From: Amycolatopsis sp. DSM 110486
GTDB taxonomy: Bacteria; Actinomycetota; Actinomycetes; Mycobacteriales; Pseudonocardiaceae
NCBI RefSeq assembly: GCF_019468465.1
Contig: NZ_CP080519.1
Coordinates: forward strand, 1,193,001-1,257,000
Reading direction: 5' to 3'
Length of the DNA stretch: 64,000 nt
Shown: one piece after another, positions 40,937-53,363 of the stretch
How the letters are laid out: the number at the start of each line of letters is the position of its first letter
Numbering within the stretch: position 1 is the first letter of the stretch
Position numbers and translations under genes: made by a program
The notes under the pieces: model-generated
What the model was told of the DNA's origin: nothing
The model's input: only the letters and a program-made list of their open reading frames with translations
Databases searched by the model: none

Positions 40937-42556
40937 TCACAGCGTCGGCACCGGAAGCCCCAGCGCCTCGGCCGATTCCGCCCGCATCTCGACCTTGCGG
41001 ATCTTGCCGGTCACGGTCGTGGGGAACTGCTCCACCAGACGCACGTACCGCGGGATCTTGTAGTGCGCCAGCTTTCCTGTCGCGAAGGCGCGGATCGCGT
41101 CGGCGTCGAGCGGAGCCGCGCCGGCCCGCACCTTGATGCAGGCGCACAGCTCCTCGCCGAACCGCTCGTCGGGCACCCCGACCACCTGCACGTCCTCGAT
41201 GTCCGGATGCGTGTAGAGGAACTCCTCGATCTCCCGCGGGTACACGTTCTCCCCGCCCCGGATCACCATGTCCTTGATCCGGCCGACGATCAGCGCGTAA
41301 CCGTCCTCACGCATCACGGCGAGGTCGCCGGTGTGCATCCAGCCGTCGGCGTCGAGCGCGTCCGCCGTGCGCTCCGGGTCGTTCCAGTACCCGATCATCA
41401 CCGAATAGCCGCGCGTGCAGAACTCGCCCGGCGTCCCGCGTTCCACGGTCTCGCCGGTCTCCGGGTCGACGATCTTGATCTCGACGTGCGGGTGCACACG
41501 CCCGATCGTCGCGGTGCGCCGGTCGAGGTCGTCGTCGGCGAGCGTCTGGCAGGAGACCGGCGAGGTCTCCGTCATCCCGTACGCAATGGACACTTCTGCC
41601 AGGTGCATCTCGGTGACACAGCGCTTCATGACCTCGACGGGACACGGCGCGCCCGCCATGATCCCCGTGCGCAGCGTGCTCAGGTCGTACTCCGCGAACG
41701 CGGGCAGCGCCTGCATGCCGATGAACATCGTGGGCACGCCGTACACCGCGGTGCAGCGTTCGTCCTGAATGGACCGCAGCGTGGTCGCCGGGTCGAACGC
41801 CGGGCCCGGGATGACCATAGCGGCGCCGTGCGTGGTACAGCCGAGGTTGGCCATCACCATGCCGAAGCAGTGGTAGAAAGGCACCGGGATCGCCAGCCGG
41901 TCAACGTGGGTGAAGCCGATCGTCTCGGTGACGAAGAAGCCGTTGTTCAGGATGTTGCGGTGGCTCAGCGTGGCGCCCTTGGGAAAGCCCGTGGTGCCCG
42001 ACGTGTACTGGATGTTGATCGGGTCGTGCGGGCTGAGCGAGGCCAGGCGTCCGGCCAGGTCTTCCTCACCCGTCGCGCAGTCGAGCAGCTGCTGCCAGTC
42101 GTCGGTGTCGAGGTACACGACGGTACGCAGCGCGGTGCCGGCGCGGACTTCGTCGATCATGGCCCCGTAGTCGCTGGTCTTGAACGTGCTCGCCGAGATC
42201 AAGAGCGTGACGCCGGACTGTTCGAGCGCGTACGCCAGCTCGTGTGTGCGGTACGCCGGGTTGATGTTGACCAGGATCGCGCCGATCTTCGCGGTGGCGT
42301 ACTGCGTGATCGTCCACTCGGCACAGTTCGGTGCCCAGATGCCGACGCGGTCGCCCTTTTCGACCCCGACCGCCATCAACGCCCTGGCGAGCGCGTCGAC
42401 GTCCGCGTTGAGCTCGGCGTAGGTCCAGCGCCGTCCGGTCGCGAACTCGACGAGGCCCTCGCGGTCACCGTGCGCGGCGACGGTGCGTTCGAAGTTCGCG
42501 CCGATCGTCTCTTCGAGCAGGGCCGGGCTGTCCGCACCGCGGGCGTAGGAGAGCAT
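40937..42556 (-). CDS. fatty-acid--CoA ligase (AMP-binding, FadD-type)
   Basis: 539 residues of the ANL superfamily. P-loop YTSGTTGFPKGATLSH near residue 188, A5 motif YGMTETSPVS, hinge region DGYALIVGRIKDMVIRGGENV near 430, and the C-terminal catalytic Lys in TTVTGKIRKVEMR. It activates a carboxylate via acyl-AMP to acyl-CoA. Follows two acyl-CoA dehydrogenase genes (12 bp gap) within one operon. Medium- or long-chain substrates are likely. Confidence 0.9.
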   Translation of the reverse strand: MLSYARGADSPALLEETIGANFERTVAAHGDREGLVEFATGRRWTYAELNADVDALARALMAVGVEKGDRVGIWAPNCAEWTITQYATAKIGAILVNINPAYRTHELAYALEQSGVTLLISASTFKTSDYGAMIDEVRAGTALRTVVYLDTDDWQQLLDCATGEEDLAGRLASLSPHDPINIQYTSGTTGFPKGATLSHRNILNNGFFVTETIGFTHVDRLAIPVPFYHCFGMVMANLGCTTHGAAMVIPGPAFDPATTLRSIQDERCTAVYGVPTMFIGMQALPAFAEYDLSTLRTGIMAGAPCPVEVMKRCVTEMHLAEVSIAYGMTETSPVSCQTLADDDLDRRTATIGRVHPHVEIKIVDPETGETVERGTPGEFCTRGYSVMIGYWNDPERTADALDADGWMHTGDLAVMREDGYALIVGRIKDMVIRGGENVYPREIEEFLYTHPDIEDVQVVGVPDERFGEELCACIKVRAGAAPLDADAIRAFATGKLAHYKIPRYVRLVEQFPTTVTGKIRKVEMRAESAEALGLPVPTL

Positions 42557-42568
42557 GATCCACTCCGA

Positions 42569-43744
42569 TCACTTGAGTTCGGCGGACGACTTGCCGAGCA
42601 GCCGGCGCGCCACGATGAGCTGCTGGATCTGTTGCGTGCCTTCGAAGATGTCCATGATCTTCGCGTCGCGCGCCCACTTCTCCAGCAGTGAGTCCTCCGA
42701 ATAGCCGAGGCTGCCGGCGAGCGCGACGCAGCCCAGCGCGATGTCCGTGGCGCTGCGGCCGGCCTTCGCCTTGGCCATCGACGCGTGCATCGAGTTCGGC
42801 CGGGCGTTGTCCGCCAGCCACGCCGCTTCCAGGGTGAGCAGGTAGGCCGCCTCGTAGTCGGCCTCCAGGTCCAGGAACGTCGCGACGGCCGCGGGTTGCC
42901 GCGGGCCGGCACGGTCGTAGTCGACGGTCAGGCCGGCCTCGGCGAGCAGCGTGCGCGTCTCGTCCAGCGCGGCCCGGGCCACGCCGACGGCCATCGCCGC
43001 GACCAGCGGACGGGTGTTGTCGAACGTCTGCATCACCCCGGCGAAGCTGCGTTCGACGTCGATCTCCGGGTCGCCGAGCAGGTTTTCGCGCGGCACCCGC
43101 ACGTTGTCCAGGCGCAGGTGCGCGGTGTCGGAGGCGCGGATGCCGAGCTTGTGCTCCAGCCGCACGAGCTCGAACCCCGGCGTGCCCTTCTCCACCACGA
43201 ACGACTTGATCGCCGCCCGGCCCAGCTCGCGGTCGAGCGTCGCCCACACCACGACGACGTCGGCGCGCTCGCCGGAAGTGACGAAGATCTTCTCGCCGTT
43301 GAGCACGTAGTCGTCGCCGTCGAGCACGGCCGTGGTGCGGATGGCGGCCGAGTCCGAACCGGTGTCCGGCTCGGTGATGGCCATGGCCGCCCACTTGCCC
43401 GCGAACCGCTTCGCCTGCTCGCCCTTCGCGACCGAGGCGATGGCGGCGTTGCCGAGACCCAAGCGAGGCAGGGACAACAGCATTCCCGCGTCACCCCAGC
43501 ACATCTCCATGATGCCGAGCACGCTGGCGAGGTTGCGTCCATTGCGGACTTCCCCGGTTGTCACCTGCCCGCCACCCGCCGCGTTCAGGCCGTCGGCGAG
43601 GGGCGCCAGCGCGTCGAGCTCCGGCGGGCGCGTGTGTTCGGCCCGGTCGTTGCGGCGGGAACCCGGCCGGAGCAGCTTCTCCGCGGTGAGATGGGCTTGG
43701 TCGACCACTGTGGACAGTCGGGCCGGCACTTCGAGGTGGATCAC
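42569..43744 (-). CDS. acyl-CoA dehydrogenase (catalytically complete)
   Basis: 391 residues. FAD/acyl-CoA motifs MAITEPDTGSDSAAIRTTAV and RRLLGKSSAEL, a GSLGYSEDSLLEKWARDAKIM segment, and the C-terminal MDIFEGTQQIQ, whose Glu matches the usual catalytic base position. Its partner gene at 43768 lacks that Glu, so a heteromeric alpha2beta2 enzyme of the steroid/side-chain FadE type is plausible. GTG 43744 is preceded by AAGGAG. Confidence 0.87.
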   Translation of the reverse strand: MIHLEVPARLSTVVDQAHLTAEKLLRPGSRRNDRAEHTRPPELDALAPLADGLNAAGGGQVTTGEVRNGRNLASVLGIMEMCWGDAGMLLSLPRLGLGNAAIASVAKGEQAKRFAGKWAAMAITEPDTGSDSAAIRTTAVLDGDDYVLNGEKIFVTSGERADVVVVWATLDRELGRAAIKSFVVEKGTPGFELVRLEHKLGIRASDTAHLRLDNVRVPRENLLGDPEIDVERSFAGVMQTFDNTRPLVAAMAVGVARAALDETRTLLAEAGLTVDYDRAGPRQPAAVATFLDLEADYEAAYLLTLEAAWLADNARPNSMHASMAKAKAGRSATDIALGCVALAGSLGYSEDSLLEKWARDAKIMDIFEGTQQIQQLIVARRLLGKSSAELK

Positions 43745-43767: not shown

Positions 43768-44910
43768 TCAGACGAGCACGACACCGCTGGCGACGCCGAC
43801 CGCGCGCAGGTCGCGGTACCAGCGTTCGACGGGGTGTTCCTTGACGTAGCCGTGCCCGCCGAGCAGCTGCACTCCGTCGCTGCCGATGCGCATGCCCTTG
43901 GCCGCGCACAGCCGGCGGGCGAGCTCCGTCTCACGAGCGAACGGCTGGCCGGCGTCCGCGCGAGCGGCCGCGCGGTAGGTGGCCAGCCGCATGCCTTCGA
44001 GCTCGATGGCGACGTCGGCGACCTTGAACGCGACACCCTGGCGGTGGCTCACCGGCTCCCCGAAGGCGACGCGCTCGTTGAGGTACGGGATCACGTAGTC
44101 GAGCACGGCCTGCGCGGTGCCGACCGCGAGCCCGCACCAGGCCAGGCGCGACAGCCGCACGCACTCCGCGTAGGCGGCCGGGTCGGCGTCGCCCAGCAGG
44201 GCCGTTTCGGGCACGTGCACCGTCGCCAGATCCAGCCGACCCGTGCCGGCCGCGCGCAGGCCCATCGCGGGCTCGGGCTCGACGCTCATCCCCGGCGCAT
44301 TCGCCTCGACCACGAACAGCGCGGGGCCGTGGCCGTCCAGCTCGGCCGCGACCACGAACAACTCGGCCTGCGCGGCCCGCGGCACCAGCGACTTGGCGCC
44401 GTCGAGGACGAACCCGCCCGGCGTGCGGCGGGCCACCGTGCGCAGCTCGAACGGGTCGAACACGGCGCGCGGCTCGAGGATGGCGAGAGCCGCCGCCGGC
44501 ACGGTGTCGCCGACGAACGCGGGCAGGTACGCGGCCTGCGCCTCGCCACTCCCCCACAGGACGAGCGCCGTGCTGACCGCGGATGACGCGAGGCACGCCA
44601 CGGCCAGCCCCATGTCGCCGGCGGCCAGGGCCTCGGTGACCAAGGTCGCCGTGACCGCGGACCGCGCGGTGGCGACCCCGCCGAGCTCCTCGGGCACGCC
44701 CAGCAGGCTGAGGCCGAGCTCGGCGGACTTGGTGACCAGGTCGTCCGGCGCCGCGCACGCCGTGTCGGCCTCACCCGCCCGCGCGCGCAGGTGCTCGGCG
44801 GCGAACTCGGCCACGGTGTCTCGGATCAGCCGCTGGTCCTCGCTCGGGGTGAAGTCGAGCAGGTCGGGCGGGGTGTCGAGCCCGGGCCGGCGGGGTTCAC
44901 TGCTGGCCAT
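43768..44910 (-). CDS. acyl-CoA dehydrogenase-like subunit lacking the EGT motif
   Basis: 380 residues. N-terminal FTPSEDQRLIRDTVAEFAAEHL, GLSLLGVPEELGGVA, and C-terminal LGGHGYVKEHPVERWYRDLRA, which aligns with other dehydrogenases. It ends GVASGVVLV, where homologues continue with an (Y/F)EGT motif containing the catalytic Glu. AGGAG precedes ATG 44910. With its neighbour it may form a heteromeric dehydrogenase in which it supplies FAD or structural contacts only. Confidence 0.82.
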   Translation of the reverse strand: MASSEPRRPGLDTPPDLLDFTPSEDQRLIRDTVAEFAAEHLRARAGEADTACAAPDDLVTKSAELGLSLLGVPEELGGVATARSAVTATLVTEALAAGDMGLAVACLASSAVSTALVLWGSGEAQAAYLPAFVGDTVPAAALAILEPRAVFDPFELRTVARRTPGGFVLDGAKSLVPRAAQAELFVVAAELDGHGPALFVVEANAPGMSVEPEPAMGLRAAGTGRLDLATVHVPETALLGDADPAAYAECVRLSRLAWCGLAVGTAQAVLDYVIPYLNERVAFGEPVSHRQGVAFKVADVAIELEGMRLATYRAAARADAGQPFARETELARRLCAAKGMRIGSDGVQLLGGHGYVKEHPVERWYRDLRAVGVASGVVLV

Positions 44911-44988: not shown

Positions 44989-45627
44989 TCAGGCCTTCTT
45001 GGCGCGAGCCCCGGCGCGACGACGAGCGGGGGCGGGGGCCTGGCCGAGGCCCGCGATCAACGCGTCGAGCCCGAGGCGCCAGCGGCGGTCCACCGACTGC
45101 TTCGAGCCGCCCAGCCGGTGCGCGCTCTCGGCGGCCGCGATGCCCTGGACGTAGGCGAAGAACACGTGCGCGATGTCCGTCGGGTCCGCGGCGAACAGGC
45201 CCGCGTCGACGGCGGTGCGGATGTGGTGCACGAAGATCTTGCGCACCTTGACGCCGGCCCTGTCCTCGTCCTGCGTGGGGTCGAAGTCGGTGAACGGGCG
45301 CGAGAACATGATCTCGGCCAGCACCGGGTTCGCGACCACGAAGTGGCGGAAGGCCTCGGCGACGTGCCGTAGGGCGTCCAGCGGATCGTCGGTGGCCGGC
45401 AGCGCCGCCAGGTCGTCGCCCAGCAGGCGGAAGCCCTCGAAGAAGACCTCGCGGATGAGACCCGCCTTGTCGCCGAACACCTCGTAGATGGCCGGGACCG
45501 AGGCCTCGGCCCGGCGGGCGACCGTGCGCGTGGTCAGCCCCGCCACGCCCTCCTCGGCGAGCACCGCGAGCGCACTGGCCAGCCCGCGCTCGCGCAGCGC
45601 TTCGGTGCGTTGCTTCACCCGGGGCAC
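44989..45627 (-). CDS. TetR-family regulator of the acyl-CoA operon
   Basis: 212 residues. HTH sequence RGLASALAVLAEEGVAGLTTR with RAEASVPAIYEVFGDKAGLI, and a long basic Ala-rich tail (ARRRAGARAKKA). GTG 45627 lies 6 nt after TACGAT (45634-45639, minus strand), so the mRNA may be leaderless. First gene of the operon fadE-fadE-fadD-GNAT and likely its repressor. An inverted repeat at 45665-45680 lies just upstream. Confidence 0.87.
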   Translation of the reverse strand: MPRVKQRTEALRERGLASALAVLAEEGVAGLTTRTVARRAEASVPAIYEVFGDKAGLIREVFFEGFRLLGDDLAALPATDDPLDALRHVAEAFRHFVVANPVLAEIMFSRPFTDFDPTQDEDRAGVKVRKIFVHHIRTAVDAGLFAADPTDIAHVFFAYVQGIAAAESAHRLGGSKQSVDRRWRLGLDALIAGLGQAPAPARRRAGARAKKA

Positions 45628-45664
45628 AGCACGATCGTAACACTCTGCCTCCCTGGTGTGAACC

Positions 45665-45680
45665 GACGTTACGGAACGTC
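45665..45680. promoter_or_regulatory. inverted repeat upstream of tetR
   Basis: GACGTT-ACGG-AACGTC, 6-bp perfect arms, 38 bp upstream of the GTG start. A candidate autoregulatory operator. Confidence 0.5.
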
Positions 45681-45708
45681 GATACGGAACAACGTTACGC
45701 TTGCCGCC

Positions 45709-45762
45709 ACTATGCATCGGCCCGCGCCTCGCCGCTACCCTTGAATGGGGGTAACCGCGTTG
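45709..45762 (-). promoter_or_regulatory. shared activator element and -10 box, copy 1
   Basis: CATAGT (complement of 45709-45714) lies 18 nt downstream, on the minus strand, of a 30-bp element (45733-45762) containing TACCC, TTGAATGGGGG and TAACCGCG. The element is 29/30 identical to the one at 53334-53363, where a matching CATAGT lies 19 nt away. Such placement suits an activator bound next to the -35 site. Confidence 0.65.
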
Positions 45763-46068
45763 TCGGCCTCCGGCGCCTCTGCCACGATCGCGATCATTCC
45801 CCTTGTCTGCCAACGAAAAATGCCGAGGAGAGCGTTGTACGTCACCTGGACAGCTCGGTTAGCGAGCGCTAACATCGACCGTGTTAACGACCGCTAACAA
45901 CGGGTCGCGACGAGCAGGTGTGCGCCGGTCAGGCGCGGCTCGTGACCGAAGCGACGAGAGTGCCGCACACACGATCACCGCCCCGGGGAATCGCCGGGTT
46001 CAGCGGTCCGCCTCGGCCACCAGGTGACGCCGAACGAACAACTGTCCTTTGGACTCGAGGGAGTCATC
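45763..46068. other. intergenic region of about 306 bp, no gene seen
   Basis: No start with a ribosome site and no coding-like frame is seen. The right part contains the two GTTAGCG/CGCTAAC-type inverted repeats (45858-45898) and leads into the acyl-CoA dehydrogenase at 46069. Confidence 0.6.
45858..45898. promoter_or_regulatory. paired inverted-repeat operators
   Basis: GTTAGCG-AG-CGCTAAC (45858-45873, perfect 7-bp arms) and an imperfect copy GTTAACGACCGCTAAC (45883-45898), 25 bp centre to centre, upstream of the dehydrogenase at 46069. TetR regulators of acyl-CoA genes use similar sites. Confidence 0.6.
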
Positions 46069-47220
46069 GTGATCGACAACAGGCTCAGCGAGGAATACGA
46101 AGAACTGCGCAAGACGGTCGCCGCGTTCGCGCGCGACGAGGTCGCGCCGGTGATCGGCGAGTTCTACATGCGCGAAGAGTTCCCCTACGAGATCGTGGCC
46201 AAGATGGGCGAAATGGGCCTGTTCGGCCTGCCCTTCGACGAGGCGTACGGCGGCATGGGCGGCGATTACTTCGCGATGTGCCTGGCCGTGGAGGAACTGG
46301 CCCGCATCGACTCATCGGTCGCGGTCACGCTGGAAGCCGGCGTGTCCTTGGGCGCCATGCCGATCTACCGGTTCGGCACCGAGGAGCAGAAGCAGGAATG
46401 GCTGCCTCAGCTGTGCACCGGGCAGATGCTCGGCGCGTTCGGCCTCACCGAGCCGGGCGCCGGTTCCGACGCCGGCGGCGCGCGGACCACCGCCGTCCGC
46501 AAGGGTGATGACTGGGTGATCAACGGCTCGAAGGCCTACATCACCAACTCCGGCACGGACATCACCGGGGTGATCACCGTCGCCGCGGTGACCGGCACGG
46601 ACGACAAGGGCGCCAAGGAGATCTCGACGATCATGGTGCCGTCAGGCACGCCCGGGCTGAGCGTGTCCAAGCCCTACTCGAAGGTCGGCTGGGCCGCCTC
46701 CGACACGCATGAGCTCGGGTTCGACGACGTCCACGTGCCCGCCGCGAACCTGCTCGGCGACCTCGGCCGCGGCTACGCGCAGTTCCTCTCCATCCTCACC
46801 GAGGGCCGGGTCGCGGTGTCCGCGCTGGCCACGGGGCTCGCGCAGGGCTGCGTCGACGAGTGCGTGCGCTACGCCAACGAGCGCGAGACCTTCGGCCGGC
46901 CCATCGGCAAGTACCAGGCGATCCAGTTCAAGATCGCCGAGATGGAGGCCCGCACGCACACCGCGCGGCTGGCCTACTACGCGGCGGCCGCGAAGATGCT
47001 GCGCGGCGAGCCGTTCAAGCGCGAGGCCGCCATCTCGAAGCTCATCTCTTCCAACGCGGCGATGGACAACGCCCGCGACGCCACGCAGATCTTCGGCGGC
47101 ATGGGGTTCATCAACGAAGCCCCGGTCGCCCGGTACTACCGCGACGCCAAGATCCTCGAGGTCGGCGAAGGCACGAGCGAGGTGCAGAAGATGCTCATCG
47201 CCCGCGAGCTCGGGCTCTGA
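46069..47220 (+). CDS. acyl-CoA dehydrogenase (short/branched-chain type)
   Basis: 383 residues. AFGLTEPGAGSDAGGARTTA (FAD and acyl-CoA contacts), ITNSGTDI, QRETFGRP-like NERETFGRPIGKYQ, GGMGFINEAPVARYYRDAKI and the catalytic Glu of EVGEGTSEVQ. Closest in pattern to butyryl/isovaleryl-CoA dehydrogenases. GTG 46069 has GAGGGAG 5 nt upstream; a start at 46024 is less likely. Followed by a strong GC stem-loop. Confidence 0.9.
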   Translation: MIDNRLSEEYEELRKTVAAFARDEVAPVIGEFYMREEFPYEIVAKMGEMGLFGLPFDEAYGGMGGDYFAMCLAVEELARIDSSVAVTLEAGVSLGAMPIYRFGTEEQKQEWLPQLCTGQMLGAFGLTEPGAGSDAGGARTTAVRKGDDWVINGSKAYITNSGTDITGVITVAAVTGTDDKGAKEISTIMVPSGTPGLSVSKPYSKVGWAASDTHELGFDDVHVPAANLLGDLGRGYAQFLSILTEGRVAVSALATGLAQGCVDECVRYANERETFGRPIGKYQAIQFKIAEMEARTHTARLAYYAAAAKMLRGEPFKREAAISKLISSNAAMDNARDATQIFGGMGFINEAPVARYYRDAKILEVGEGTSEVQKMLIARELGL

Positions 47221-47238
47221 CGCTTTCGCTCGAATGGC

Positions 47239-47265
47239 GGGGCCCCGGGGTGCGCCCGGGGCCCC
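47239..47265 (+). terminator. GC-rich stem-loop terminator
   Basis: Perfect 11-bp stem GGGGCCCCGGG / CCCGGGGCCCC with a 5-nt loop, 19 nt after the dehydrogenase stop at 47220. There is no T-run. Confidence 0.6.
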
Positions 47266-47327
47266 GGCAAAGAAGGTATGACGACCAACAGTAGGTCATC
47301 CTAGTAAATCGGAGGTACGATCCCGCC

Positions 47328-47822
47328 ATGGAAGGCACTCGGACATACAGCTGGGTGGACCCCCAGGAGATGGCCAAACTCAGCCGCGAGATGGACGGGC
47401 TCGAGTTCAGCCGGCACCTGCTCGACGCCGGTGAGGCCGGGATCATGCCGATCGCCGCGACACTGGGCTTCCGGCTCGCCGAGATCGAGTCCGGCCACGC
47501 CGTGCTGGTGGGCGAGGTCGGCGAGCACCTCTACAACCCGATCGGCATCGTCCACGGCGGGGTCGCCGCGACGCTGCTCGACAGCGCCGCCGGTTACGCC
47601 GTGCAGACGACGGTGCCGGTCGGGAGCAGCTACACCACATTGGACCTTTCGGTGCACTACCTGCGGCCGCTCACCGCGGACATCGGCACGCTCCGCGCGA
47701 CCGGCAACGTGATCAACCGGGGCCGGCGGACCGCGCTGGCGCACGCCGAGATCCGCGACGCGAAGGGTCGGCTGCTCGCGCACGCGACGAGCTCGTGCAT
47801 GGTGTTCACCACCGACGCGTGA
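47328..47822 (+). CDS. PaaI-family thioesterase (hot-dog fold)
   Basis: 164 residues of the hot-dog fold. LGFRLAEIESGHAVL, GIVHGGVAATLLDSAAGYAV (the catalytic HGG-x2-A-x2-D region) and DLSVHYLRPL. It hydrolyses acyl- or aryl-CoA thioesters. TACGAT lies 6 nt before ATG 47328, suggesting leaderless transcription, though GGAGG also occurs further upstream. A second member is encoded at 62310. Confidence 0.88.
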   Translation: MEGTRTYSWVDPQEMAKLSREMDGLEFSRHLLDAGEAGIMPIAATLGFRLAEIESGHAVLVGEVGEHLYNPIGIVHGGVAATLLDSAAGYAVQTTVPVGSSYTTLDLSVHYLRPLTADIGTLRATGNVINRGRRTALAHAEIRDAKGRLLAHATSSCMVFTTDA

Positions 47823-47838
47823 CGGTGACGAGGCGGAC

Positions 47839-48711
47839 ATGAACGGACCCGACCTGCGCTCCCGTCGTCCACTGTGGTCCACCCCGCCGGCCACAGTGGA
47901 TGACGGGAGCGCGATCCGGCACATCATCGACGACCTGCTGCCCGAGCGGCTGGAGCGGCTGCGGAAGGTGACCGGCCTGCCGATCGCCCTCGGCGGCACC
48001 ACCCGCCACGGCGCCGGCGGCCTGCACCTGGTGCTCGACCGTCTGATGGGCAACTCCGGCGATGCGTTGCGGGGGCTCGTCGTGCAGCCCGGGAAAGGGC
48101 TCGGCGGGTGCGTGCTGCGCAGCCGGACCCCGTTCCGGGTCAACGACTACGCGTCCACGATGGCGATCACTCACGAGTACGACGTCGTGGTGCGTCAGGA
48201 GGGATTGACGTCGGTCTTCGCCGTGCCCGTGCTGGTCCGGGGTGAGGTGCGCGGGGTTCTGTACGGCGCGGTGCGGGAAGGCAACCCGATCGGCGACCGG
48301 ACTGTGCGCAGTGCCGTGGTGGTCGCCGAGCAGCTTCAGTCCGATGTGGAGGGACAGCTGCGGCGCGATCCCGGTCACGCGGCCGTCCGCTCGCGGGGTG
48401 CGCTCGCCGAGCTCGCCGAACTCATCCGCGACACGAGCGATCCGCAGCTGCGCGCGCGGCTGGAGCGGATCCAGGCGGACCTGACGAGTGAACCGGCGCG
48501 GGCCGAGATCGCGGCGTCTGCGTCGCTCGCGCCCCGGGAGATCGACGTGCTGCGGCTGGCGGAGGTGGGGGCCAGCAACCTGGAGATCGCCGCCCGGCTG
48601 GGGCTGAGCCTGGAGACCGTCAAGGCTTACCTCCGATCGGCGATGCGCAAGCTGGAAGTCCACAACAGAACGGCGGCCGCTCATCAAGCGCGGCTGAACG
48701 GTCTGTTGTGA
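47839..48711 (+). CDS. GAF-LuxR regulator (RamA-like)
   Basis: 290 residues. An N-terminal GAF-like domain (~35-170, with VNDYASTMAITHEYD and VFAVPVLVRGEVRGVLYG) and a C-terminal LuxR HTH (REIDVLRLAEVGASNLEIAARLG split over two helices, LETVKAYLRSAMRKLEV). This arrangement matches RamA of Corynebacterium, the regulator of acetate metabolism, which binds G/C runs such as GGGGGT. It is convergent with an acetate permease gene. The shared elements at 45733 and 53334 contain such runs, which suggests it could control both operons. Confidence 0.85.
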   Translation: MNGPDLRSRRPLWSTPPATVDDGSAIRHIIDDLLPERLERLRKVTGLPIALGGTTRHGAGGLHLVLDRLMGNSGDALRGLVVQPGKGLGGCVLRSRTPFRVNDYASTMAITHEYDVVVRQEGLTSVFAVPVLVRGEVRGVLYGAVREGNPIGDRTVRSAVVVAEQLQSDVEGQLRRDPGHAAVRSRGALAELAELIRDTSDPQLRARLERIQADLTSEPARAEIAASASLAPREIDVLRLAEVGASNLEIAARLGLSLETVKAYLRSAMRKLEVHNRTAAAHQARLNGLL

Positions 48712-48713
48712 GG

Positions 48714-48744
48714 GGACGGGGCCACGACTGCCGTGGCCCCGTCC
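48714..48744. terminator. bidirectional stem-loop terminator
   Basis: Perfect 13-bp stem GGACGGGGCCACG / CGTGGCCCCGTCC with a 5-nt loop between the convergent luxR and acetate-permease genes. Confidence 0.75.
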
Positions 48745-48751
48745 GGCTGCA

Positions 48752-49414
48752 CTAGCTGAGCTTGAAGACCGGCAGCACCTGCCGGCCGTAGGTCGCGGTC
48801 ATGATGTCGGCCGTGCCCCGGTAGAGCCCGAGGACGGCGAACACCACGGTGACGTACCCGGAAGCCTGCACGAAGCCCTTGCTTCCACTGTGGACACCGA
48901 TCATGAGGAGCACCAGTGCCGCCAGCAGCAGCACCAGCACGCTGACGAGCACCGCGTCCGTCCGCAGCGCCGAGACGAGGAAGACGAACGTGAGCACGGC
49001 GAACATCGCGAGGAACACCGTGAGCCCGCTCGACACCGCTGCGGTGGGATCGACGTTCGCCTTGGTCGCGGCTTCGACGACCTTCTCCTCGAACGTCGTC
49101 TGGATGAAGCCGTAGATGACCCAGAACGGCCCGAAGCTGCCGAACACCACGGCGCCGAACACGTTGCCGCGCACCACTTCGAGCACGGCGACGATGATCT
49201 GGATCGCGCCGCCGAAGAAGAAGGCCACCGGGATCACGAGGGCGGCACCGGCTGGATTGACGAAGTTTCCGTTGTAGAGGCCGAGCATGAGCGAGGTGGC
49301 GGAGAAGGCCAGGATCGCCCACGCGCCGGGGTCGGCGATCGGGACGGTCCGCTCGGCCGGTTGGTCGAAGGTCTGTTCGCGGATGAGAGAGTCGTGCTGA
49401 ACAACACTGGTCAT
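48752..49414 (-). CDS. acetate/succinate uptake transporter (GPR1/FUN34/YaaH family)
   Basis: 220 residues with six hydrophobic helices. The N-terminal family motif appears as NFVNPAGAAL (normally NPAPLGL), and helix 3 as FGSFGPFWVIYG. The family exports or imports acetate and related acids. It is the last gene of the acyl-CoA synthetase operon (53278 to 48752), whose order predicts use of small carboxylates. 54 bp follow the ribBA stop. Confidence 0.87.
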   Translation of the reverse strand: MTSVVQHDSLIREQTFDQPAERTVPIADPGAWAILAFSATSLMLGLYNGNFVNPAGAALVIPVAFFFGGAIQIIVAVLEVVRGNVFGAVVFGSFGPFWVIYGFIQTTFEEKVVEAATKANVDPTAAVSSGLTVFLAMFAVLTFVFLVSALRTDAVLVSVLVLLLAALVLLMIGVHSGSKGFVQASGYVTVVFAVLGLYRGTADIMTATYGRQVLPVFKLS

Positions 49415-49468
49415 ACGAGTTCTCCTTGGGGGGTTGGCGACCAGTAAAGGTCGTGCACGCCCGAGCGG

Positions 49469-50629
49469 CTACCCCCGGCCGGGGGTGACTTCGCCGTAGG
49501 GAACCCGTCCGGTGACACGCAATCCGTAGCCCTCCAGCCCGACGCGTTTGCCGGGGTTGTCGGAGAGCAGGCGCATGCTGCGGATGCCGAGATCACGCAG
49601 GATCTGGGCGCCGGTGCCGTAATCCCGTGCGTCCGCCGCTACGCCGAGCGAGACGGTGGCGTCCACAGTGTCCTGATCGGCGTCTTGCAGTTGGTAGGCC
49701 TGGAGTTTGTGCAGCAGCCCGATCCCGCGGCCCTCGTGGCCGCGGATGTAGAGCACGACGCCGCGGCCTTCGTCGGCCACGGCCTGCAGCGCGGCTTCGA
49801 GCTGGGGACCGCAGTCGCAGCGCAGCGAGCCGAAGACGTCACCGGTCAGGCATTCGGAGTGCACCCGCACGAGGATGTCCTCGCCATCGCCGATCTCGCC
49901 GTAGACGAACGCGATGTGCTCGATCCCGTCCAGCAGACTGTCATACCCCACCGCGCGGAACGTCCCGGCGGCCAGCGGGATCCGGGCCTCGGCGACCCGC
50001 TCCACCTGCTTCTCGGTCCGACGGCGGTAAGCGATCAGATCGGCGATCGTGATCACCCGAAGGTCATGATCCGCGGCGAAAACCTCAAGCTCGTCGCGGC
50101 GAGCCATGTCGCCCTCGTCCTTCTGCGACACGATCTCACACAGCACACCGGCCGGGTTCAGCCCCGCCATCCGGGCCAGGTCGACCGCGGCCTCGGTGTG
50201 ACCCGGGCGGCGCAGCACGCCACCCTCCTTCGCACGCAACGGCACCACATGCCCCGGGCGGCGGAAGTCCTTCGCCGACGCGGCCGGGTCAGCCAGCAAC
50301 CGCATCGTGTGCGCACGATCCGCCGCCGAAATGCCCGTCGTGATGCCCTCCGCCGCGTCCACCGTGACGCTGTACGCGGTCCCGCGCACATCCTGGTTCG
50401 TGTGATACATCGGCGGCAGATCCAGCCGATCCGCCTCGGCCTCCGTCAACGCGACACACACATAACCCGAGGTGTAGCGGACCATGAACGCCAGCAACTC
50501 CGGCGTCGCCTTCTCCGCCGCGAAGATCAGATCGCCCTCGTTCTCACGATCCTCATCATCGACCACCACCACGGCTTTGCCCGCCGCGATGTCCACAATG
50601 GCGGCTTCGATCCCCTCGCCGCCGGTCAC
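49469..50629 (-). CDS. ribBA: bifunctional 3,4-dihydroxy-2-butanone-4-phosphate synthase/GTP cyclohydrolase II
   Basis: 386 residues. N-terminal RibB domain: [20 protein letters not shown] (acidic catalytic cluster), [10 protein letters not shown] and [16 protein letters not shown]-terminal RibA domain: [20 protein letters not shown] with the three zinc cysteines, and [16 protein letters not shown]. It makes two riboflavin precursors from ribulose 5-phosphate and GTP. GTG 50629 overlaps the preceding stop (GTGA). Its place among acyl-CoA genes is unusual; perhaps an extra copy supplying FAD to many dehydrogenases. Confidence 0.93.
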
Positions 50630-51447
50630 CCCTTGGCCTGGCGCAGCAGACGGCGGAACCGGAACCGCGAGCCGCTCGTCGCCGCGGCGAGGTCACCGCC
50701 GGCCAGGTCGATCGCAGCCTGATCGAGTACGGACATCACGTGTGCGTAAAGCGACGACCCGAGGCTGATCCGCTTCACACCGGCTTGGTGGAGTTCGGAC
50801 ACCGTCAGAGTCTTGTCCGCCGGCGACACCACGACGTTGACCGGCTTGGGCGCCACCGCCTGCACGATTTTCTCCACCGACGCGAGGTCGGGCGGGAGCG
50901 GGGCGAACAGCACGTCGGCGCCGGCTTCCGCGAAGGCGCTGAGGCGGCGGATGGTGTCGTCGAGGTCGTTGATGCCCTGGATGAAGTTGTCGGCGCGGGC
51001 CGTGACGACGATCCGCTGCTGCGCCGCTGCGACGGCGTGGCGCACGCGGTCCACCGACTCGTCGAACGGCCGGATCGGGTTCTCGCCGGTGCCGGTCGTG
51101 TCCTCGACACCGATGCCCGCCAACCCGGCCTCGACCGCCGCCTCGACGGTGGCGGCCACGTCCTCGGCGGTCTCGCCGTAGCCGTCCTCGAAGTCGCCGT
51201 TGATCGGGAGGTCGGTGAGCCGCTTCAGGAGTTTCGCGTGGTCGAGATGTTCTTCTCGGCTCACGGCGTGGCGGCCGTCGAACCGGCCCAGCGTCGCGGC
51301 GAACGCGGCCGAGCTGGTGCCGATCGCCTCGAAACCGGCGTCGGCCATGAGCAGGGCGGAGAGGCCGTCCCAGGCGTTGGGCATGACGAGGCCTTCGGGG
51401 CGGGTGTGCAGTGAGAGGAAGTGTTCGTAGATCTCGGAGCCAGGCAT
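50626..51447 (-). CDS. isocitrate lyase/PEP mutase superfamily protein
   Basis: 273 residues. [14 protein letters not shown] near 20 (substrate phosphate or carboxylate contacts), [15 protein letters not shown] near 84 (Mg-binding Asp/Glu), [19 protein letters not shown] and [10 protein letters not shown]. The KKCGH signature of isocitrate and methylisocitrate lyases is missing, so it is better described as the oxaloacetate-hydrolase/PEP-mutase-like subgroup. Reaction unknown. ATG 51447; it follows the acyl-CoA synthetase by 34 bp and overlaps ribBA by 4 nt. Confidence 0.8.
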
Positions 51448-51481
51448 GGCGGCGGTCCTTCGGCAGTCGGGGTTCGGCGGT

Positions 51482-53278
51482 TCAGCGGGTCAGGTCGGGG
51501 AACTGGTCGTCGCGCCATTCGGTGCCGGCGTCCGCGCCGAGTTCGCGGGCTCGCAGCTCCACGCGGCGGATCTTGCCCGAGATCGTCTTGGGCAGGTCGG
51601 CGAACTCGAGGCGGCGCACGCGTTGGTACGGGGCGAGGTTCTCCCGCGCGTAGCGCAGGATGGACAGTGCCGTCTCCTTGGTGGGCTCGTGTCCGGGCGC
51701 CAGTCCGATGTAGGCCTTCGGCACCGCCAGACGGACGGGGTCCGCTGCGGGCACCACGGCCGCCTCGGCAACAGCGGGATGTTCGATGAGCACCGACTCG
51801 AGTTCGAACGGGCTGATCTTGTAGTCGCTGGCCTTGAAGACGTCGTCGGTGCGGCCGATGTAGGTGAGGTAGCCGTCTTCGTCTATCGAGGCGACGTCGC
51901 CGGTGTGGTAGTAGCCACCGGCCATGGCCTCGGCGGTGCGTTCGTCGTCGGCCAGGTAGCCGGTCATCAACGTCAGCGGAGGCTGTGCCAGGTCGAGGCA
52001 GATTTCGCCTTCCCCCGGTCCTGGGACGACGTTGCCGCTCGCGGGTTCGACCAGCACGACCGGGACACCCGGCAGCGGACGGCCCATGGAGCCCGGTTTG
52101 ACGTCGGATTCGGGGGTGTTGCCGACCTGTGCGGTGGTCTCGGTCTGGCCGAAGCCGTCGCGGATGGTGATGCCCCACGCCGCGCGGACGCGTTCGATCA
52201 CCTCGGGGTTGAGCGGTTCGCCGGCGCCGATCGCCTCGCGCAGGCCCGCCGGGCGGGCACCGAGGTCGGTGTTGATCAGCATGCGCCAAACGGTGGGCGG
52301 CGCACAGAACGTTGTCACTTTTCGCACACGCAGCTGGTTCAGGAGTGCGGCCGGGTCGAAGCGGCTGTAGTTGTAGACGAAGATCGTCGCCTCGGCGATC
52401 CACGGGGCGAAGAAGCAGGACCACGCGTGTTTCGCCCAGCCCGGCGACGAGATGTTGAGGTGGACGTCGCCCGGCCACAGGCCGAGCCAGTACATCGTGG
52501 CGAGGTGCCCGACCGGGTAGGAGACCTGGGTGTGCTCCACGAGCTTGGGCCGCGTCGTGGTGCCGGAGGTGAAGTACAGCAGCAGCGGGTCGCCGGGTGC
52601 GGTGCCGGGGTGTTCGACCGGGGTGTGCGGCAGGTCGGCGGCTTCGTGGAGATCGGCCCAGTGGCGGTTGGCACAGTGGAGATCGGCACAGTGGAGATCG
52701 GCGCAGTGGAAGTCGGCGTCGTGGAGATCGGCCCCATGGAGGTCGGCGCAGTTTTCCGCGGGGCCGACGCTGATCCGTGTGTAGTCGCCGGGAACGTCGA
52801 CGAACTTGGGCGTGTCGGCGGAGTTGCAGATCACGTGCCGCGGCTCGCCTCGGGTGATGCGGTCGGTGAGGTCGGCGGGTCCGAGCGCGGTCGTGGTCGG
52901 CATGATCACGCCGCCGAGCTTCATGATCGCGAGCATGGTTTCCCAGAGCTCGACCTGGTTGCCGAGCATCAGCAGCACGCGGTGTCCTTTGCGGACACCC
53001 CGGTTTCGCAGCCACGTCGCCAATCGGTCGGACGCGCGGGACAGCTCGCCGAACGTTCGCCGGGTCTCCGAGCCGTCTTCCTCGACGATGACGAGGGCCG
53101 GGCGGTCGTTGTCGGCGTTGTCGCGGGCGACGGCGTCGAACCAGTCGACGGCCCAGTTGAACCGCTCGCCGAGGTCGGGCCAGCGGAACTCCTCGACCGC
53201 GCGAACGTGCTTGCCGCGCAATGCCAGCAGCTGGTCGCGGCTCGCCTTGTAGGCCCGGTGTGCGTCGCTCGTGGTCAA
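51482..53278 (-). CDS. acyl-CoA synthetase (acetyl-CoA synthetase-like) with pentapeptide-repeat insertion
   Basis: 598 residues. ANL superfamily: P-loop YFTSGTTTRPKLVEH at about 235-249, GFGQTETTAQVG, GYYHTGDVASIDEDGYLTYIGR, and the C-terminal Lys in KTISGKIRRVEL. Usual length is about 560-570. The extra length lies at residues 178-212, seven tandem copies of AD(L/F)HX, just before the P-loop. ATG 53278 lies about 25 nt after a predicted transcription start. First gene of the operon with the lyase-like protein, ribBA and the acetate transporter. Confidence 0.88.
   Translation of the reverse strand: MTTSDAHRAYKASRDQLLALRGKHVRAVEEFRWPDLGERFNWAVDWFDAVARDNADNDRPALVIVEEDGSETRRTFGELSRASDRLATWLRNRGVRKGHRVLLMLGNQVELWETMLAIMKLGGVIMPTTTALGPADLTDRITRGEPRHVICNSADTPKFVDVPGDYTRISVGPAENCADLHGADLHDADFHCADLHCADLHCANRHWADLHEAADLPHTPVEHPGTAPGDPLLLYFTSGTTTRPKLVEHTQVSYPVGHLATMYWLGLWPGDVHLNISSPGWAKHAWSCFFAPWIAEATIFVYNYSRFDPAALLNQLRVRKVTTFCAPPTVWRMLINTDLGARPAGLREAIGAGEPLNPEVIERVRAAWGITIRDGFGQTETTAQVGNTPESDVKPGSMGRPLPGVPVVLVEPASGNVVPGPGEGEICLDLAQPPLTLMTGYLADDERTAEAMAGGYYHTGDVASIDEDGYLTYIGRTDDVFKASDYKISPFELESVLIEHPAVAEAAVVPAADPVRLAVPKAYIGLAPGHEPTKETALSILRYARENLAPYQRVRRLEFADLPKTISGKIRRVELRARELGADAGTEWRDDQFPDLTR
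52643..52747 (-). repeat. 15-bp minisatellite encoding seven AD(L/F)HX pentapeptides
   Basis: Seven in-frame 15-nt units inside the acyl-CoA synthetase gene, encoding ADLHG, ADLHD, ADFHC, ADLHC, ADLHC, ANRHW and ADLHE. The pattern resembles A(D/N)LXX pentapeptide repeats, which form beta helices. The last unit appears ancestral, because it is contiguous with normal sequence (ADLPH), and the others look like slippage duplications. Confidence 0.85.
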
Positions 53279-53308
53279 CAGCGATCCTTCCTTCGGCGTG
53301 ATAACGCG

Positions 53309-53363
53309 ACTATGCGTTTTCCGGCCGGTCTGTCGCTACCCTTGAACGGGGGTAACCGCGTTG
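53309..53363 (-). promoter_or_regulatory. shared activator element and -10 box, copy 2
   Basis: CATAGT (complement of 53309-53314) sits about 30 bp before the synthetase ATG. The 30-bp element (53334-53363) lies 19 nt upstream of it and differs from copy 1 at a single base. Within it TACCC and GGGTA are mirror-symmetric. Confidence 0.7.

Follow-up and report, generated by a model that had tools for sequence, protein, structure and literature searches.

A candidate operator dyad linking RamA-like GAF-LuxR regulators with acyl-CoA genes in Amycolatopsis and other Mycobacteriales

Introduction

LuxR/NarL-type activators act at class II promoters, with the lux box lying near position -42.5. CrbR is a LuxR-type regulator, and RamA of Corynebacterium glutamicum is reportedly under negative autoregulation. 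According to the accessible part of its description, CrbR activates acs, the gene encoding acetyl-CoA (coenzyme A) synthetase, in proteobacteria (PMC5715377), and DfdR of Rhodococcus is described, in the accessible text, as a GAF-like LuxR regulator (PMC6099782). In an industrial bacterium, RamA is known to regulate carbon metabolism. In the accessible part of one study it is called a global regulator, its sites are described as short G or C runs with the motif A/T/C-GGGG-N and A/T/C-CCCC-N, and the gap between aceA and aceB is used as a known RamA target (PMC4847777). Here, a 64,000-nucleotide stretch of the genome of the soil actinomycete Amycolatopsis sp. DSM 110486 (contig NZ_CP080519.1, positions 1,193,001 to 1,257,000; hereafter the window) is analyzed, in which two nearly identical 30-base elements precede operons for acyl-CoA metabolism on either side of a gene encoding a RamA-like protein with a GAF domain and a LuxR-type helix-turn-helix. 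From comparison of sequences, these elements are predicted to be operators through which the RamA-like protein would act on acyl-CoA genes as a class II activator, a reading given a probability of roughly 0.87.

Two Elements With a Common Dyad Core

The elements, at 45733-45762 and 53334-53363, are identical in 29 of 30 bases, and on the minus strand the hexamer CATAGT follows after 18 nucleotides (nt) at the former and 19 nt at the latter; direct checking confirmed the preliminary description on the positions, the single differing base, and the spacing of the hexamers. That description had also proposed a genome-wide search, which returned no copies of the 27-base core within three mismatches other than these two in 10.98 Mb, the backwards control giving none. 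The element is therefore not a dispersed repeat, and the suggestion that it might be one unrelated to transcription is disfavored by the two copies and their fixed promoter position.

The core of each element is an imperfect inverted repeat of 18 base pairs (bp), TACCCCC-N4-AAGGGTA on the minus strand, and two of the three exact TACCC-N8-GGGTA places in the genome are in the window. Dyad 1 lies upstream of the tetR-fadE-fadE-fadD genes and dyad 2 upstream of an acyl-CoA synthetase gene. A third dyad is found 55 nt upstream of the start of an acetate transporter gene; it is one of the genome's two places with one mismatch to TACCCCC-N4-GGGGGTA, and there are none with zero. The arm ACCCCC is common to all three window dyads, the other arm being AAGGGT in dyads 1 and 2 and GGGGGT in dyad 3 only. 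At up to two mismatches, a threshold set by two of the window's own three dyads, the same pattern occurs at 14 genome places, three of them in an 8-kb region about the GAF-LuxR gene. In Amycolatopsis pretoriensis, dyad 1 is conserved together with its neighborhood: the tetR promoter retains it as TACCCCCGTTCAAGGGTA, the -10 hexamer reads CACAGT, and a long stretch of the leader is kept as well.

Ten places outside the window were inspected, namely eight of the 11 at up to two mismatches (5855794, 6138644, and 6428081 being left out), the one exact TACCC-N8-GGGTA place not in the window, and the three-mismatch site of a paralog. Six of the 10 fall inside called open frames, so most of the outside places probably arose by chance. 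The bare dyad was rejected as a marker, since it is present in 49 of 60 genus genomes, often in unrelated places, and a pattern of 10 bases does not suffice by itself.

The Dyad Beside RamA-Like Genes in Relatives

The comparison set comprised loci for 40 of 59 genus match rows, which with the window's own make 41, plus one added later (17 rows were left out), together with all 32 new rows from 248 order genomes and one Gordonia locus. When named genomes were scanned with the regulator, 12 loci resulted; those of A. pretoriensis and Gordonia are full relatives, and the remaining 10, in which only the C-terminal part matches, were dropped. Sites were counted from -300 to +150 of the estimated gene start, and expected numbers were derived from the remaining sequence of these loci.

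In the first 74 loci, TACCCCC-N4-GGGGGTA at up to two mismatches gives 41 dyads in 40 loci at the gene start, where 0.32 would be expected. The window-derived pattern TACCC-N8-GGGTA at one mismatch was found in 17 of 40 genus loci, against an expectation of 0.32, and in 15 of 33 hold-out loci, against 0.10. Because the longer pattern took its form from genus loci already inspected, the hold-out loci are the fair test; at two mismatches it occurs in 19 of 40 genus loci (0.20 dyads expected) and, with 22 dyads where 0.05 would be expected, in 21 of the hold-out loci. Both the gap and the half-site are specific. Across 74 loci, without the window and with L243, a gap of 4 nt gives 41 loci, gaps of 0-3 and 5-11 give 0 to 6, and reversed controls give none; when 400 half-sites of like make-up were sampled, that of the dyad was the best, the next reaching 18 and the median 0. 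A matrix trained on the 19 genus sites alone places a start site above the 99% background in 23 of 33 hold-out loci. With a matrix built from all loci, which is partly circular, the figure is 53 of 75, and 15 further loci have a site behind the gene at a score above 9. In the window, A. pretoriensis (G056), and one more locus (G036), the dyads are 1.6 to 5.5 kb from the start of the regulator gene. Site-bearing genes appear in most branches of a tree of the 75 proteins; because the loci are related, their counts are not independent events. By these comparisons of sequence, the YACCCCC-N4-GGGGGTR dyad accompanies RamA-like GAF-LuxR genes across Mycobacteriales.

Target Genes and Promoter Spacing

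Among the 68 loci with a site, the target-side gene (expectation value up to 1e-8) matches the window's acyl-CoA synthetase in 44, its FadD in 12 (56 for these two), and its acyl-CoA dehydrogenase in three, and 22 of the 44 synthetase matches have at least 55% identity. The other nine loci gave no match; in one of these no frame had been called, and in three the gene begins, as judged by eye, in the manner of a transporter. None of 19 unlinked synthetase paralogs, sampled from 19 genus genomes, had a site, the best score being 6.0. In a clade of 11 proteins that includes the window's, regulator and synthetase point apart in eight loci, seven of which have the dyad between them, and in one locus (L069) the two genes are arranged in tandem and the dyad precedes the synthetase gene. 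Within the window, both the synthetase operon and the fadE side have a dyad of their own.

The dyad keeps a fixed promoter position. In non-redundant sequences, the search ran from the dyad in the direction opposite to the regulator or, where the site follows the regulator gene, forward. On the target side, 36 of 40 sequences, the window's own excluded, have NANNNT at 21-22 nt past the dyad, the shuffle maximum being 9. The tighter NA[TC]NNT, which was chosen after the sequences had been seen, is found at 21 or 22 nt in 29 of 43 with the window's own sites included, the best offset pair in 1000 shuffles reaching at most 7, and in 27 of 40 without them (shuffle maximum 8). On the regulator side, the best offset for NA[TC]NNT accounts for 5 of 53, as by chance. 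If the hexamer is a -10 at -12 to -7, the dyad is centered at -42.5 or -43.5, where class II activators have their sites. This class II spacing, with a fixed distance to the -10 and a center near -42.5, holds for dyads 1 and 2 and not for dyad 3. The idea that dyad 1 drives the plus-strand fadE operon was rejected, as no NA[TC]NNT is found 21-22 nt away on that side, the first being at 29.

A RamA-Like Regulator Distinct From RamA

As the preliminary description had noted, a RamA-like gene lies between the two elements, and its product is proposed here, too, as their binder, a proposal that the comparative evidence supports as a prediction. The protein has the domain order of the RamA-like GAF-LuxR superfamily, GAF followed by a C-terminal GerE helix-turn-helix. 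It is RamA-like rather than RamA: on the equivalog model for RamA (NCBIfam NF041673) it scores 143.8 bits against a cut-off of 500, in a single match that spans residues 31-289, and two Corynebacterium-type RamA proteins score 509.9 and 518.4. The recognition helix carries T-V-K-x-Y, which may be read as a mark of the family; over 75 rows that include Corynebacterium-type proteins, T and Y are present in 75, V in 73, and K in 74.

The preliminary description was right to point toward RamA. The ACCCC half-site accords with the RamA motif, and G4 or C4 runs next to A/T/C occur in the window dyads, the motif being that given in the accessible part of PMC4847777. Of 23 rows for Corynebacterium-type aceA, one (L262) was excluded at a contig end; the dyad matrix scores seven of the remaining 22 upstream regions at control p < 0.05, where about 1.1 would be expected, and 15 not, with CACCCCAAAGCGGGGGTG near -417 among the seven. 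These genomes were taken to be Corynebacterium partly from their RamA score. The result hints, weakly, that one type of site could be common to RamA and RamA-like proteins and looser in Corynebacterium.

Proposed Mechanism and Alternatives

The sequence itself shows the dyads, their rarity, positions and spacing, and their association with the protein family and with acyl-CoA synthetase genes; binding, activation, ligand sensing and, in relatives, autorepression are inferences. A dimer of the C-terminal LuxR-type helix-turn-helix would recognize the YACCCCC-N4-GGGGGTR inverted repeat. At the tetR-fadE and acyl-CoA synthetase operons, whose promoters would use CATAGT as -10, the dyad would extend from about -51 to -34, over the usual -35 position, and the protein, once bound, would touch RNA polymerase in the manner of a class II activator. 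The GAF domain probably senses a metabolite related to acetate or acyl-CoA. The third dyad may act likewise on the acetate transporter gene. In most relatives examined the dyad is near the start codon of the regulator itself, and binding there could repress the regulator.

Several observations weigh against these proposals. Genome-wide, there is no enrichment of the dyad at up to three mismatches (190 sites against 204 in the backwards control), and a small local regulon is therefore to be expected. A close enough relative of the regulator was found in only 35 of 248 order genomes, and four of the 75 loci, one from Pseudonocardiaceae and three of Corynebacterium type, have no dyad near the gene; two of these three Corynebacterium-type loci were scanned, and both pass the RamA cut-off. 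The stricter hexamer TANNNT is at 21-22 nt in 6 of 40 sequences, a count that does not exceed the shuffle maximum of 7. No fitting -10 accompanies dyad 3, which overlaps the ribBA stop codon at the end of that gene, and its transporter was found in one of 60 genus genomes, which leaves no relative in which to look for conservation of the dyad. The window and two close relatives have no dyad at the start of the regulator gene, and autoregulation in the window is on that account unsupported.

It is unlikely, if conceivable, that the RamA-like protein uses the dyad mainly as a repressor site from which an acyl-CoA ligand releases it. The site covers -35, where a bound protein could block polymerase, and RamA of C. 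glutamicum can be activator or repressor and lowers expression of bca, according to the accessible part of PMC4847777. The fixed distance to the -10, kept on the target side alone, and the center near -42.5 fit an activator better, because nothing requires a repressor site to hold its distance constant.

The genome encodes two further RamA-like genes, L074 (1687602) and L088 (7029586), one before a FadD-like gene and the other before an acyl-CoA dehydrogenase gene, and each is adjoined by a related variant of the dyad. It might be supposed from this that the main binder of the window dyads is another regulator, such as one of these paralogs or the TetR protein, which appears quite improbable: the dyad beside each paralog is its own and has a center different from the window's, the window's gene is flanked by three dyads within 8 kb, and the tetR leader carries a separate palindrome. 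A recent promoter duplication or dispersed repeat, which would make the likeness of the elements uninformative on regulation, is very improbable. The likeness does extend beyond the 18-bp dyad into flanks and center, exceeding the family motif, and a duplication may account for that excess, but not for the conservation; the genome has two copies only, both at one promoter position, and diverged dyads at that position are present in other genera. Operators of the RamA-like protein at class II promoters thus remain the preferred explanation of the elements.

Genes of the Locus

The gene assignments of the preliminary description hold. The regulator gene lies between genes for TetR, a pair of acyl-CoA dehydrogenases, and FadD and, on its other side, genes for acyl-CoA synthetase, a phosphoenolpyruvate-mutase/methylisocitrate-lyase-like protein, RibBA, and acetate transporter (Table 1). 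The regulator gene itself seems to be read together with the plus-strand fadE and a thioesterase gene. At an expectation value of up to 1e-30, the acetate transporter gene was found in this one alone of 60 genus genomes, and it may be a recent arrival.

Three further observations concern sequences in and around these genes. At 45858-45902, upstream of the plus-strand acyl-CoA dehydrogenase gene, are the palindromes GTTAGCGAGCGCTAAC and GTTAACGACCGCTAAC, whose pattern occurs at seven genome places at up to one mismatch (control 0), with a second cluster at 2041648-2044239; they are perhaps operators of another repressor. The palindrome CGACGTTACGGAACGTCG (45664-45681) lies between the -10 and the tetR start, in a leader that A. 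pretoriensis has largely kept, and is perhaps the TetR protein's own operator. Within the acyl-CoA synthetase gene, about seven 15-bp tandem repeats (52646-52752) are pentapeptide-like when translated (Pfam Pentapeptide).

Table 1. Predicted sites and genes of the locus, in window coordinates.
Feature	Coordinates	Strand	Remarks
Operator dyad 1 (predicted), TACCCCCATTCAAGGGTA	45736..45753	minus	2 mismatches to TACCCCC-N4-GGGGGTA; inside 45733-45762
-10-like hexamer CATAGT	45709..45714	minus	21 nt beyond dyad 1
Operator dyad 2 (predicted), TACCCCCGTTCAAGGGTA	53337..53354	minus	2 mismatches; inside 53334-53363
-10-like hexamer CATAGT	53309..53314	minus	22 nt beyond dyad 2
Operator dyad 3 (predicted), CACCCCCGGCCGGGGGTA	49470..49487	minus	1 mismatch to TACCCCC-N4-GGGGGTA
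Weak -10 candidate TTTACT	49443..49448	minus	21 nt beyond dyad 3; no fit to NANNNT
RamA-like GAF-LuxR regulator, proposed binder	47839..48711	plus	Pfam GerE and GAF; NCBIfam RamA 143.8 bits
4HBT thioesterase	47328..47822	plus	Directly upstream of regulator gene
Acyl-CoA dehydrogenase	46024..47220	plus	Likely first gene of fadE-thioesterase-regulator operon (operon judged from spacing)
TetR-family regulator, first gene behind dyad 1	44989..45627	minus	Pfam TetR_N and TetR_C_33
Acyl-CoA dehydrogenase	43768..44910	minus	
Acyl-CoA dehydrogenase	42569..43726	minus	
FadD-like acyl-CoA ligase	40937..42556	minus	
Acyl/acetyl-CoA synthetase (AMP-binding), first gene behind dyad 2	51482..53278	minus	
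Phosphoenolpyruvate-mutase/methylisocitrate-lyase-like protein	50626..51447	minus	
RibBA	49469..50629	minus	
Acetate uptake transporter (Gpr1/Fun34/YaaH), behind dyad 3	48752..49414	minus	

Comparison With Known Regulators

The kind of regulator described here is known. No report of the dyad or of the pairing of RamA-like regulator and acyl-CoA synthetase was found in the open literature, subscription papers lying mostly outside the search; the same open-literature search did not turn up the spacing. A dyad with fixed spacing in many genera amounts to a testable code for the protein family, one that predicts what numerous unnamed regulators control, for the most part acyl-CoA synthetases, and that suggests a way in which the switch of a local pathway could have turned into a global regulator.

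The site resembles those of LuxR/NarL-type class II activators in that the window-type dyad is centered near -42.5 on the target promoter. Those activators carry an autoinducer or receiver domain, whereas here there is a GAF sensor, and the half-site is YACCCCC. As is proposed for the RamA-like protein, CrbR activates an acetyl-CoA synthetase gene, yet it belongs to a two-component system and to other phyla. DfdR, which can be likened by description only, combines a GAF-like domain with a LuxR-type helix-turn-helix in an actinobacterium; it differs in sensing dibenzofuran and other aromatics, as the title of that paper states.

A further resemblance is to RamA of C. glutamicum, which likewise has a GAF domain and a LuxR-type helix-turn-helix, C or G runs flanked by A/T/C, and a role in acetate and acyl metabolism; the recognition helices are similar, TVKSYLR in Corynebacterium-type rows and TVKAYLR in the window. 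RamA, as portrayed in the accessible part of PMC4847777, has a short-run motif and global reach, in contrast to the 18-bp inverted repeat, fixed promoter position, and expected small local regulon of the window. A wider proposal, for which the odds appear even, is that the RamA-like proteins would make up a widespread and largely unstudied family in Mycobacteriales, that a single dyad would pair each regulator with one acyl-CoA synthetase or related gene of acyl-CoA metabolism, activating the synthetase from -42.5 and repressing the regulator, and that Corynebacterium RamA would be a branch that turned global as its sites loosened to short G/C runs.

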